From: Planctomycetota bacterium
GTDB taxonomy: Bacteria; Planctomycetota; Phycisphaerae; Phycisphaerales; SM1A02
NCBI GenBank assembly: GCA_014381305.1
Contig: JACNLW010000072.1
Location: 1-32,973 of the forward strand
DNA length: 32,973 bases
Reading direction: 5' to 3'
The translations under genes were made by a program, and so were the position numbers. This document shows positions 1,819-6,715 of the stretch, one piece after another (positions within the stretch are counted from its first letter, which is position 1; each line of letters begins with the position of its first letter). The notes below the pieces were generated by a model. It did no database searches. It saw only the letters and a program-made list of their open reading frames with translations, and was not told the origin of the DNA.

Positions 1819-1892
1819 GTTCCGTTCACCTTAAGGCTGAGGATCTGGTGTTTTTTACACAGGAAGTAGAGGTTCGATTCCTCTTCGGAACA
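1819..1892 (+). tRNA. tRNA-Glu-like element with UUU at the anticodon position (possibly a pseudo-tRNA)
   Basis: A cloverleaf can be drawn. The acceptor pairs GTTCCG with CGGAAC; a seventh position is T-T mismatched. The T arm is perfect, AGAGG/CCTCT around loop TTCGATT. The D loop contains GG, and a 7-nt anticodon loop TTTTTTA sits on a short stem. The discriminator is A and no CCA is encoded. The acceptor, U8-C9 and D-arm layout resemble bacterial tRNA-Glu, but the anticodon position reads TTT (Lys), base 37 is a pyrimidine, the D-stem and anticodon stem each contain one mismatch (or the anticodon stem has a bulged G1848), and position 14 is T instead of A. These defects suggest a decayed or divergent tRNA rather than a standard one. 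An RNase Z-type gene follows 46 nt later. Confidence 0.45.
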
Positions 1893-2931: not shown

Positions 2932-4296
2932 ATGAAAACAACCAGCATCGACGCCCCGCAGTTACGATTGGATTTGCTGTCACAATTGCGCAAAGAACAC
3001 CCAAGAATGTGTCGAAAGTGGTTTGAAGACATTGATGTTCTAGGAATTTCTGATGGGTCTATTGTTATTTATCTGCAAGAAGATGTGCAATTAAATTATC
3101 TTGAAAAAAAATGTAAAAAACAATTTGTTGAAGCCGCGCAACTTGTTACTGGTCACTTGCTTGGTGTGAGTTTTGTAAATAGTAGAGATATTGTTTGTCA
3201 AAATACATCTGTGCAACACTTTAACCCGTCTGGATCTGTTATTACCGACGATGTTTTTGGCGACATGTTGATCAGCCCAGACTATAGTTTTGATAACTTT
3301 GTTGTAGGACCCGGAAACCAACTTGCACACGCAGCTGCTATTGCTGTTGCGAAGAAGCCCGCCCAAGCGTACAACCCTTTGTTTATACATAGCGGGGTTG
3401 GTCTTGGAAAGACGCATTTGTTACAAGCAATTTGTCAAACTGCTATGCAGTCGAACAATTCGATGAAAATTTATTATGTTTCTTGTAATGGTTTTTTAAC
3501 GCAATTTTTGGAATCAGTACAGGCGGGTAAAATGTCGGACTTTCGTCATAAGTTTAGGGCGTTTGACATGCTCATCATTGACGATATTCACGATCTCTCA
3601 AACAGAGAACAAACACAAGAAGAGTTTTTTCATACATTCAATACGTTGTTTCAATCTGGAAGACAGGTTGTGTTAAGTTCAGATGCTCCACCAAGCGAAA
3701 TTCCTCAACTTGAGGACAGGCTGATAAGTCGCTTTAGTTGTGGGCTTGTTGCGGGTATTGATCCACCTGGGTTCGAAACGCGAGTTGCAATTATTAAAAA
3801 GAAGGCCGCGCTTCGACACATTGATATTCCAGATGATGTGTCAAATTATATTGCTGCTCGGTTAGATCAAAATATTCGCCAGCTTGAAGGCGCAATTACA
3901 AAACTTCAAGGACTCTCTTTGTTGGATGGGTCCCACATTGATTTAGCAATGGCAAAAGCTGCGATTTCAACTGGGGGGGGGTTGATAAACTCGCCAAAAC
4001 ACCTCTCCATTCAAGATATTCTTGACGCAATTAGTGCTTTTTATGACGTAAAACTCGTAGATTTACTCTCAAAACGAAGAAATAAGTCAATTACGATGCC
4101 AAGGCAGGTTGGTATGTGGCTCGCAAGACACCACACGCGGTTTAGCCTTGAGGAAATTGGCGGTTATTTTGGTGGGCGGGATCACACCACAGTCATGCAC
4201 GCTATCAAGAGCGTGGATTCTAAAAAAACAACAAACGATCAACTCGATCAAGATCTTGTAAGACTGCAGAACCAACTCTCATTAGACACCGAATAA
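2932..4296 (+). CDS. dnaA: Chromosomal replication initiator protein DnaA
   Basis: A full-length 454-aa DnaA. It has an N-terminal domain I (residues 1-85, MCRKWFEDI ... VIYL pattern), a short linker, and an AAA+ domain with Walker A GVGLGKTH (155-162) and Walker B IIDDIH (215-220). Sensor/arginine-finger segments include EDRLISRF and the IDPPGFETR motif. The C-terminal box-binding helix-turn-helix has the DnaA signature GGRDHTTVMHA (about 414-424). It binds DnaA boxes and melts the origin. The usual partner dnaN is not adjacent. The 81 bp upstream are very AT-rich and could be a promoter or unwinding region. Downstream, 4297-4603 carries DnaA-box-like sites and a potentially structured segment. 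The start at ATG 2932 lacks a strong Shine-Dalgarno, but it places domain I at the expected distance. Confidence 0.97.
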   Translation: MKTTSIDAPQLRLDLLSQLRKEHPRMCRKWFEDIDVLGISDGSIVIYLQEDVQLNYLEKKCKKQFVEAAQLVTGHLLGVSFVNSRDIVCQNTSVQHFNPSGSVITDDVFGDMLISPDYSFDNFVVGPGNQLAHAAAIAVAKKPAQAYNPLFIHSGVGLGKTHLLQAICQTAMQSNNSMKIYYVSCNGFLTQFLESVQAGKMSDFRHKFRAFDMLIIDDIHDLSNREQTQEEFFHTFNTLFQSGRQVVLSSDAPPSEIPQLEDRLISRFSCGLVAGIDPPGFETRVAIIKKKAALRHIDIPDDVSNYIAARLDQNIRQLEGAITKLQGLSLLDGSHIDLAMAKAAISTGGGLINSPKHLSIQDILDAISAFYDVKLVDLLSKRRNKSITMPRQVGMWLARHHTRFSLEEIGGYFGGRDHTTVMHAIKSVDSKKTTNDQLDQDLVRLQNQLSLDTE

Positions 4297-4331
4297 ACCT
4301 GTTTTTTTACCCCTTATTGGTGCGCGACAGC

Positions 4332-4542
4332 CTTGTTGATAAGTGGTGGATATCGTTTTCTGCCTTGGTTGGTTCAACTATGAAACGAGACCCTGTGATC
4401 CAGCCCCACGCCGCGTTTGTAGGTATTTATGGCGATAAACAACAGTGGTTTTGACAGGTTGTTAGGGGCTAGTTTGCGGCGTAAAGCATTGTTAATACAG
4501 CCCTTCTGTTTGTGCGGCGCACGCTGTCCACATATCAACAGG
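4332..4542. ncRNA. Candidate structured RNA (or structured origin DNA) between dnaA and trpD
   Basis: This occupies most of the 307-bp gene-free gap 4297-4603. Segment 4332-4346 (CTTGTTGATAAGTGG) is complementary to 4528-4542 (CCACATATCAACAGG) in 14 of 15 positions, counting one G-U, which would close a domain of about 210 nt. Inside it, ACGCCGC (4408-4414) pairs perfectly with GCGGCGT (4476-4482). AGCCCC (4402-4407) can pair with GGGGCT (4465-4470), giving an H-type pseudoknot geometry. Local hairpins are TTTAT-GGCG-ATAAA (4426-4439), ACAG-CCCTT-CTGT (4497-4509) and GTGC-GGC-GCAC (4512-4522). No open reading frame of note is present. It does not match the conserved cores I know for RNase P, SRP or tmRNA, and 6S RNA is not convincing. 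Strand, promoter and terminator are unresolved. Confidence 0.35.
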
Positions 4543-4593
4543 ACATACAACGAAGAAGACGAATATTTTATGTAACTAGGTGTCTAATTGTTG

Positions 4594-4602
4594 TGTGGAT
4601 AG
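4594..4602 (-). promoter_or_regulatory. DnaA-box-like site
   Basis: TGTGGATAG on the plus strand matches the reverse complement of the consensus DnaA box TTATCCACA at 8 of 9 positions. Weaker 7/9 matches occur at 4524-4532 (CTGTCCACA) and within GGTGGATAT near 4345-4353. Their position directly behind dnaA would suit autoregulation or an origin, but three scattered imperfect boxes are weak evidence. Confidence 0.3.
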
Positions 4603-4603
4603 A

Positions 4604-5653
4604 TCATAAAGAAAAACTAATATCCATCCAATTTGATAAAGTCTTTGCCCCGCGGCCAGAGTCGACGGTTTCCTTTGCCATTTGAATCCCAACAGAGAGA
4701 TCTGGGACGCGATCTGCAAGAAAAAGACCCACAGACACATTCACCAAAACCATGTCTCTTACGGCGCCGTGGAGAGTTCCAGAGAGCGTGTCTCGAACAA
4801 ATGCTGTTGCCTGTTTTAGGTCACTTGCAACAACATCTTCCATTTTTGAGAGGGGAAGCCCGAGCTCTTCAGGATTGATAACTGATTCCACAAGTTTTCC
4901 ATTTTCAACGAGCACCATTCTTGTTGGTGCTGAAATTGAAACCTCATCTAGGCCGTCGCTCGAATGCACAACCGCAGATTTTGTTGTGGAACTTTGAAGA
5001 AGGGATTCTGCCATTGGCATGACAAACCGATCATCCCAGACCCCGAGCAGTTGTCTGCCAGCATTGCACGGGTTTGAAAGTGGTCCAAGTAAGTTAAAAA
5101 TAGTTGGAAACCCAAGTTGTTTTCGAACGGGCATGACGCTTGCAACTGCTTTGTGATGGTTTGGTGCGAAGCAGAAGCAGATATTTTCTTTTTCAAACGA
5201 TGCTTGTTGTTGTTGTTCGGTCGCGTGGATATTTACGCCCAGCGATTCAAGAACCTCAGCTGATCCCCTGCCCGTACGAGAACGGTTTCCATGTTTCGCA
5301 ATTTTTACGCCACATGCAGCAAGCACAATTCCAGCAGCAGTTGAAACGTTAAAAGTTTTTGGAGCACCCCCAGTTCCACACGTATCCAAAAACATCGTGT
5401 GATCACCCTGAAGGTTTACTTTTTGGGCAAACTCCCGCATTATTGAAGCGGCCCCAAAGAGTTCATCGCCCGTTGGATTGCGCGTTGCAAGCGAAGCAAG
5501 GAGCGCGCCAATGAGCCCGTCTGGAGCCCCTCCCGACATCAGAATGCGCCACGCATCAGCAATTTCTTTGGCAGTAAGCGTGTGACCAGATCGGACACGA
5601 TCAACAGCGTAGCGAAGTGGTTCGAGTTGTTTGATATCGAGCATTTCAGTCAT
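4604..5653 (-). CDS. trpD: Anthranilate phosphoribosyltransferase
   Basis: Transfers the phosphoribosyl group of PRPP to anthranilate in tryptophan biosynthesis. Diagnostic motifs are DTCGTGGAPKTFNVS (PRPP-binding glycine loop), KHGNRS, the GRGSAEVLESLGV stretch, and the metal-binding DGLDE followed by VS. With the start at ATG 5653 (MTEMLDIKQL) the protein is 349 aa, the usual size. An upstream start at 5719 would add 22 residues with no family counterpart and would run into the divergent lgt gene. No other trp gene is adjacent, so this is an isolated pathway gene. It is divergent from lgt, with only 39 bp between the two chosen starts, so their promoters must overlap or extend into each other's 5' coding sequence. 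Confidence 0.95.
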   Translation of the reverse strand: MTEMLDIKQLEPLRYAVDRVRSGHTLTAKEIADAWRILMSGGAPDGLIGALLASLATRNPTGDELFGAASIMREFAQKVNLQGDHTMFLDTCGTGGAPKTFNVSTAAGIVLAACGVKIAKHGNRSRTGRGSAEVLESLGVNIHATEQQQQASFEKENICFCFAPNHHKAVASVMPVRKQLGFPTIFNLLGPLSNPCNAGRQLLGVWDDRFVMPMAESLLQSSTTKSAVVHSSDGLDEVSISAPTRMVLVENGKLVESVINPEELGLPLSKMEDVVASDLKQATAFVRDTLSGTLHGAVRDMVLVNVSVGLFLADRVPDLSVGIQMAKETVDSGRGAKTLSNWMDISFSL

Positions 5654-5692
5654 AATCTGCAAATCATACGCAGGTGCGGATACTATTGCATC

Positions 5693-6715
5693 ATGCTTGC
5701 CGATGCATACATTCACCAACTCAGCCCATTTGCCATTCAGCTCACAGATACTTTTGGTTTACGGTGGTACGGGCTCGCCTATATCGCAGGTTTTATTGTT
5801 GGATGGTGGTTTATTCGATGGATGGCAAGAACGGATCGATCGCCACTGACGCCAGATCAAGCGGGCGACCTTTTGTTTGCAGGTGTCTTGGGCGTGCTTC
5901 TAGGTGGTCGAATTGGGTATGCACTTTTTTATGACCCGCAACTTCTCATCAGTTTTTCTTCAGAATTTCCTTGGTGGGATTTATTGGCGATCAATCGCGG
6001 CGGCATGGCGAGCCACGGCGGAATTATTGGCGTTCTTTTCGCATTTATTATTTGGGGTCGCAAACACAAAATACCGGTCATGCACCTTGCAGATTTGGCG
6101 AGCGTTGGAGGCACCGCGGGTCTGTTTTTTGGACGAGTTGCAAATTTTATAAACGGTGAACTTTGGGGAAAACAAATACCAAATCAACAAGAACCGCCTT
6201 GGTGGTCCGTTAAATATCCCGCAGAAATTACAGAGGTTTGGCTTTACAACCCGGATCAATATGGGAACCAACTCGCAGCACTAGAACCCCTTCGGACAAC
6301 TGTAGTAAGTGGTAGCGATGCGTTCCTTCAACAAATTGTTGCAGAGGCATACAAAGGAAACACGGTTGTAATCGAAACCATTGCCCCACAATTGACAGCA
6401 TGGTACCCATCCCAACTTTTTCAAGCGATAAGTGACGGCCCCCTCTTACTCGGAGCGCTGATCGCAGTTTGGTTTGTTCCAAGAAAGCCGGGTGTTGTGA
6501 GCGGCTGGTTTTTAGTTGTCTATGGACTGCTCCGCATGGTGACAGAAGTTTTCCGCCAACCAGACGAAGGCGTGTCAATTATTATTGGCCTCTCAAGGGG
6601 ACAACTACTAAGCGCTGGAATGGTGCTTGCGGGCGCAGCGATGATTTTGATTTGCGCGAAAAGGAATTCAAAAAAATACGGTGGAATTATTCGAGCGAAA
6701 CAGGCACAAGCGTAG
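5693..6715 (+). CDS. lgt: Prolipoprotein diacylglyceryl transferase
   Basis: Inner-membrane enzyme that moves diacylglycerol from phosphatidylglycerol to the lipobox cysteine of prolipoproteins, the first step of lipoprotein maturation. The chosen ATG 5693 gives 340 aa; an upstream in-frame start at 5582 would overlap trpD on the other strand. Hallmarks are RWYGLAYIAGF in the first membrane segment, GGRIGYALFYDP, NRGGMASHGG with the conserved His-Gly-Gly, FGRVANFINGE (the Lgt signature), WYPSQLFQ, and the C-terminal RMVTEVFRQPD. Several hydrophobic spans are evident. There is an insert of roughly 60 residues after the signature (about residues 165-230) before YPSQ, so it is longer than a 270-290 aa minimal Lgt. 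Likely substrates nearby include the TolC-type lipoprotein at 22335-24011. Its 3' end overlaps holB. Confidence 0.95.
   Translation: MLADAYIHQLSPFAIQLTDTFGLRWYGLAYIAGFIVGWWFIRWMARTDRSPLTPDQAGDLLFAGVLGVLLGGRIGYALFYDPQLLISFSSEFPWWDLLAINRGGMASHGGIIGVLFAFIIWGRKHKIPVMHLADLASVGGTAGLFFGRVANFINGELWGKQIPNQQEPPWWSVKYPAEITEVWLYNPDQYGNQLAALEPLRTTVVSGSDAFLQQIVAEAYKGNTVVIETIAPQLTAWYPSQLFQAISDGPLLLGALIAVWFVPRKPGVVSGWFLVVYGLLRMVTEVFRQPDEGVSIIIGLSRGQLLSAGMVLAGAAMILICAKRNSKKYGGIIRAKQAQA

Follow-up and report, generated by a model that had tools for sequence, protein, structure and literature searches.

A most likely chromosomal origin between dnaA and trpD in a planctomycete, with an unusual variant of the Bacillus-type strand-opening motif

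The intergenic DNA that separates dnaA from trpD in this planctomycete is most likely an ordinary chromosomal origin, which carries an unusual variant of the Bacillus-type strand-opening motif. That this gap is oriC we consider very likely on the strength of its sequence, and we hold with good confidence the fuller explanation, in which the origin would be opened via the right-hand DnaA sites and a triplet tract on the lower strand. The sequence itself displays a box cluster, a layout like that of Bacilli, a triplet periodicity and conservation of these elements in relatives, and from them we infer where DnaA would bind, which strand it would take, in which direction it would run and what it would unwind. 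The DNA analysed (the window, 32,973 nt in all) is contig C20 of a 1.88 Mb genome in 114 contigs, and among the named entries of the genome collection its DnaA is matched best by that of Phycisphaerae bacterium SI047_bin83 (88%).

The gap and its right-hand module

The gap is bounded by convergent genes, dnaA (2932-4296, plus strand; 454 aa, Pfam Bac_DnaA and Bac_DnaA_C), whose product is the presumed reader of the origin, and trpD (4604-5719, minus strand; Pfam Glycos_transf_3), which leave 307 nt between them (4297-4603). In 11 of the 12 loci of the genus trpD likewise lies downstream of dnaA, the contig of the twelfth stopping 211 nt past dnaA. The first DnaA box after dnaA (TTATCAACA, 4334-4342, minus strand) has 1 mismatch to TTATCCACA, and a box within two mismatches occupies this place in all 12 aligned genus members; a second, weaker box (ATATCCACC, 4345-4353, minus strand) has 2 mismatches and a far-side box (CTATCCACA, 4594-4602, minus strand) has 1. 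Elsewhere in the window, positions 1819-1892 (plus strand) score barely over the Rfam tRNA threshold (30.2 bits against 29), with no tRNA from ARAGORN.

Between these boxes stands a compact module. Core box 1 (CTGTCCACA, 4524-4532, plus strand, 2 mismatches) is accompanied by a box-like site 2 (ATATCAACA, 4532-4540, plus strand, 2 mismatches) lying 8 nt after it, as in Bacilli cores, and the two are followed by a linker, GGAC (4541-4544, plus strand), and by a triplet tract (4545-4565, minus strand) which on the lower strand, 3' to 5', runs TAT GTT GCT TCT TCT GCT TAT, with the central bases A T C C C C A. The tract forms the beginning of the AT-rich, presumed unwinding region (4545-4593), which extends from the core boxes to the far-side box. 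The same succession of DnaA box, box-like site, linker, triplet tract and AT-rich DNA, a second core, recurs in 11 of the 12 genus members, the contig of the twelfth ending there, and within the source genome the core is single-copy within 3 mismatches.

The frame of the linker, and with it that of the tract, was fixed by a matrix of Bacilli cores. The Bacilli set comprised 59 loci (L052-L110, nearly all with Bacilli titles, one titled Pseudomonas), of which 58 gave a core, and the matrix was built from the first 21 nt of these (box, second site and linker); since the trio tract was excluded, the triplet frame is set from outside. Against a null of mononucleotide shuffles, three per locus, with a 99% quantile of 4.58, the window scores 16.6, and 30 of 99 planctomycete gaps downstream of dnaA exceed the same quantile. 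In one of the 30 (L049), probably a false hit, no tract can be seen, and one genus member (L008) falls narrowly under the threshold (3.4 against 4.58) with a tract that looks alike. At triplets 3-6 of the 30 planctomycete cores the upper strand reads NGA in 58 of 120 cases and NTA in 23, NGA dropping to 17 and 5 in the shifted frames, whereas in Bacilli 174 of the 232 corresponding triplets are NTA and 8 are NGA. When one locus was kept per DnaA group at >=75% identity (13 loci), NGA still accounted for 19 of 52 triplets, where 5000 shuffles averaged 3.2 and never exceeded 12. Triplets 1-3 of the 30 cores have a lower-strand central A in 70, 67 and 60% of cases, so that the tract on the strand presumably bound by DnaA is mostly 3'-NCT-5' after the first triplets.

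The published rule for the B. subtilis basal unwinding system (BUS), given in PMC8287927, asks for three or more consecutive A-centred triplets, (.A.){3,}, and for a box with at most 2 mismatches, often one of a tandem, that precedes the tract by at most 16 nt. Two sites in the window lie within that distance, the tract starting 12 nt past box 1, while the longest A-centred run is 1; among planctomycete cores a run of three occurs in 11 of 30 (shuffling gives 24%), as against 56 of 58 in Bacilli. Because the window departs from the A-centred rule, its module may be described as BUS-like, and not as a BUS member by that rule. The resemblance to the B. subtilis BUS, as described in PMC6669920, PMC8287927 and PMC10721633, lies in the near-contiguous tandem box sites, the short linker, the AT-rich DNA, the adjacent dnaA and a fixed start of the tract, with order and spacing the same as in the 58 Bacilli cores; unlike the B. 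subtilis BUS, the window has triplets that are mostly C-centred after the first ones, fewer than three consecutive A-centred ones, and a DnaA in which Glu183 and Asn187 are replaced.

The gap could also be an oriC in which DnaA, loaded from the far-side box (4594-4602), reads the upper strand of the tract, or in which the tract is no DnaA site at all. On the upper strand the tract offers 5'-GAA GAA GAC GAA-3', every triplet of 4549-4563 being A-centred, and 9 of 11 genus gaps, counted by hand, have a far-side reverse box with at most two mismatches. However, the near boxes are oriented and spaced relative to the tract as in Bacilli, and the far-side box stands about 30 nt from it, beyond the 16-nt limit stated in PMC8287927; we regard this arrangement as unlikely.

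In the preferred, lower-strand reading, DnaA would bind the left inverted boxes and the two tandem right sites (4524-4540), and from the latter a DnaA oligomer would pass over the short linker and be loaded on the triplet tract (lower strand, from 4545). Leaving the boxes behind, this oligomer would run along the lower strand 3' to 5', the direction taken in the basal unwinding system of Bacillus, stretching that strand and opening the AT-rich DNA. In this lineage many triplets would offer C at the captured central position, to a DnaA whose pocket for that base differs.

Box clustering and skew around dnaA

The preliminary description had raised, as one option, origin DNA with inverted box-like ends, and this option has fared well: the ends are inverted DnaA-box clusters and are kept by relatives. 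The gap contains 2 boxes with at most one mismatch, against a shuffle mean of 0.13, and 6 with at most two, against 1.00, and 9 of the 11 full-length genus gaps contain a perfect box. Over the whole window there are 14 boxes with at most one mismatch where 9.04 are expected, a number that 6 of 100 shuffles equal; this is not a clear enrichment, and the clustering is thus local to the gap. The AT content in 40-nt windows is 0.68-0.70 over 4530-4619, as against 0.40-0.62 from 4290 to 4559. Two of the features by which an oriC is recognised, an intergenic DnaA-box cluster near dnaA and an AT-rich unwinding element beside the boxes, are present.

DnaA-box clusters with regulatory or titrating roles are known, and the boxes could in principle constitute such a cluster with the origin situated elsewhere. 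The GC skew of two single-contig relatives bears on this alternative in different ways. In one of them (G034), as sampled, the skew is too noisy for a reading, shows no clear turn at dnaA and so does not single out the gene, as a titrating cluster would allow. In the other (G021) each of the 9 coarse stretches of 0-1.405 Mb has negative skew and each of the 9 between 1.6 and 3.2 Mb has positive skew, the summed skew being lowest at 1.445-1.465 Mb (24 sampled stretches, 1.20-1.70 Mb) with dnaA at 1.402 Mb; the turn of the cumulative skew, as sampled, falls within about 60 kb of the gene. This turn, the position of the gap after dnaA and not at its promoter, and the ordering of boxes, linker, triplet tract and AT-rich DNA as in the Bacilli unwinding core all speak against a titrating or regulatory cluster, which we consider quite improbable.

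Pairing arms and conservation in relatives

The region originally singled out (4332-4542) owed its interest to its pairings, and these are present in the sequence: two 15-nt arms (4332-4346 and 4528-4542), separated by 181 nt, form 13 Watson-Crick pairs and one G-U, which makes 14 of 15 positions, the remaining one being an A-A mismatch, a perfect 7-bp stem joins 4408-4414 to 4476-4482, and a competing 6-bp GC stem joins 4409-4414 to 4514-4519. As a mark of RNA these pairings do not stand up, for shuffles often give 14 of 15 and relatives lose the stems; among 300 dinucleotide shuffles of the gap (307 nt), 184 yield a 15-mer in which 14 or more positions pair (G-U allowed). Just 7 of the 300 yield one with 13 or more Watson-Crick pairs, so that the closing arms, which pair the left box cluster with the right one, are somewhat unusual as a DNA inverted repeat. 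The right-hand boundary at 4542 was misplaced, since it cuts through a conserved block that continues to about 4570, and a further DnaA box lies at 4594-4602.

The other option of the preliminary description, an unassigned structured RNA transcribed from the gap, closed by the 15-nt stem and perhaps pseudoknotted, was examined by folding both strands, by Rfam at two thresholds, by RNAalifold, by pair counts and by z-scores in 11 genus members. The proposed comparison of folding energy with shuffles gave an MFE z of -0.96 for the plus strand, with 35 of 200 shuffles folding as well, and of -1.98 for the minus strand, with 10 of 200. In the 11 genus members the mean z is -1.35 (plus) and -1.69 (minus), with a range of +0.66 to -3.54, and two members (G004 and G007) fall below -2.8 on both strands. 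Values so similar on both strands would fit DNA repeats better than a single RNA. The suggested Rfam search, 6S RNA included, assigns no family to the gap at the gathering score, and permissive settings return two sub-threshold matches within it (E 0.9 and 2.1).

In an alignment of 12 genus members, one of them cut off at its contig end, the closing stem keeps 6-12 of 15 pairs across the 10 relatives that have both arms, and the inner stems break up, the 7-bp stem keeping 1 to 5 of 7 pairs in the 11 aligned relatives. Over the 12 rows 69.6% of the cells of the closing stem pair, as against 67.7% after shuffling. The covariation score of this stem is reached by only 24 of 500 shuffles, but both-sided change, for which the preliminary description had proposed to look, occurs in 2 of 14 pairs, a number that 408 of 500 shuffles reach. 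RNAalifold retains 8 pairs, with both-sided changes in none, and these set DnaA box against DnaA box, a pairing that inverted boxes produce by themselves. Given stems lost in relatives, both-sided changes no commoner than in shuffles, no promoter-like or terminator-like site found within the dnaA-trpD gap and flanking genes that converge, the structured RNA was rejected despite its mildly negative mean z on both strands, and we find it very hard to credit.

Conservation across the 12 genus rows is largely confined to the box right after dnaA, a middle motif within 4442-4460 and the core at about 4524-4570, the interior of the proposed RNA being poorly conserved even against the 88% relative. 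In the middle motif (window 4442-4463) ACA at 4442-4444, ACAG at 4454-4457 and TT at 4459-4460 are invariant in the 12 rows, and GACAGG recurs near boxes in other planctomycete gaps; the motif may be a weak DnaA site or a site for another protein.

The central-base pocket and the reach of C-centred trios

In PMC10721633, Glu183 and Asn187 of B. subtilis DnaA are reported to bond the central A of a trio, and Arg202 and Glu228 the first base. Aligned to the B. subtilis DnaA of PDB 8btg, without gaps in the pocket stretch, the window DnaA has Asn186 at the position of Glu183 and Thr190 at that of Asn187, and keeps the first-base residues (Arg205 for Arg202, Glu231 for Glu228). The first-base pair is nearly invariant among planctomycete loci (Glu228 in 99 of 99, Arg202 in 98 of 99), while the central-base pair varies. 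All 59 loci of the Bacilli set have Glu183 and Asn187, and all 12 genus loci have Asn at 183 and Thr at 187. The 32 loci of L013-L046 have at 183 Ser (10), Asn (9), Asp (8), Glu (3), His (1) or Ala (1) and at 187 Asp (18), Asn (6), Thr (3), Ser (3), Glu (1) or His (1); in the 55 other planctomycetes position 183 is Glu in 43 and Asp in 12, and position 187 is Asn in 51. A strict coupling of C-centred triplets to the loss of Asn187 was rejected, for three loci (L014, L181 and L192) combine Asn187 with C-centred triplets, and L181 and L192 also have Glu183.

The same genome encodes a second DnaA-like protein (G000:C111:7122-8363, 29% identity), and such a paralog occurs in many related genomes among those searched; one of the same genus (G006, listed as 97% complete) has the paralog only and no close dnaA match, perhaps owing to an assembly gap.

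That C might serve as a central base has experimental precedent. According to PMC10721633, changing the central A of the trios to C gives a similar opening rate in vitro, cells with C substitutions grow better and initiate more than cells with G or T, and the possibility is raised that DnaA homologs read a range of sequences. The window resembles those engineered B. subtilis origins in its C-centred triplets; it differs in that the engineered C stands in trios 1-3 with Asn187 present, whereas here C is natural, occurs from triplet 3 on and is accompanied by Thr at 187. C-centred opening in the lineage of the window is, from these sequences, plausible. A broader proposal would be that origins of this Phycisphaerae lineage are opened via 3'-NCT-5', a naturally occurring alternative to the usual DnaA-trio, which is captured in a pocket of changed specificity (Glu183 to Asn, Ser or Asp; Asn187 to Thr or Asp), code and reader having drifted together while the boxes, the linker and the first-base pocket stayed unchanged. 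We advance this tentatively, as something short of probable, because loci outside the lineage lack a fixed-frame excess: outside L001-L046 a matrix from 26 cores recovers the core in 8 of 55 loci at a 95% null, probably by chance in some of them, and these 8 have NGA in 7, 6 and 5 of 32 triplets in the three frames. For this reason no claim is made for the phylum as a whole.

In the open-licence literature we found no paper on DnaA-trios in Planctomycetes or Planctomycetota. PMC8287927 puts origins without DnaA-trios at 15% and suspects deviant trios that lack the central A. The present lineage would supply natural candidates for such trios, together with changes at the two residues reported to touch the central base, and in genomes of this kind rule-based origin finders may miss the tract.
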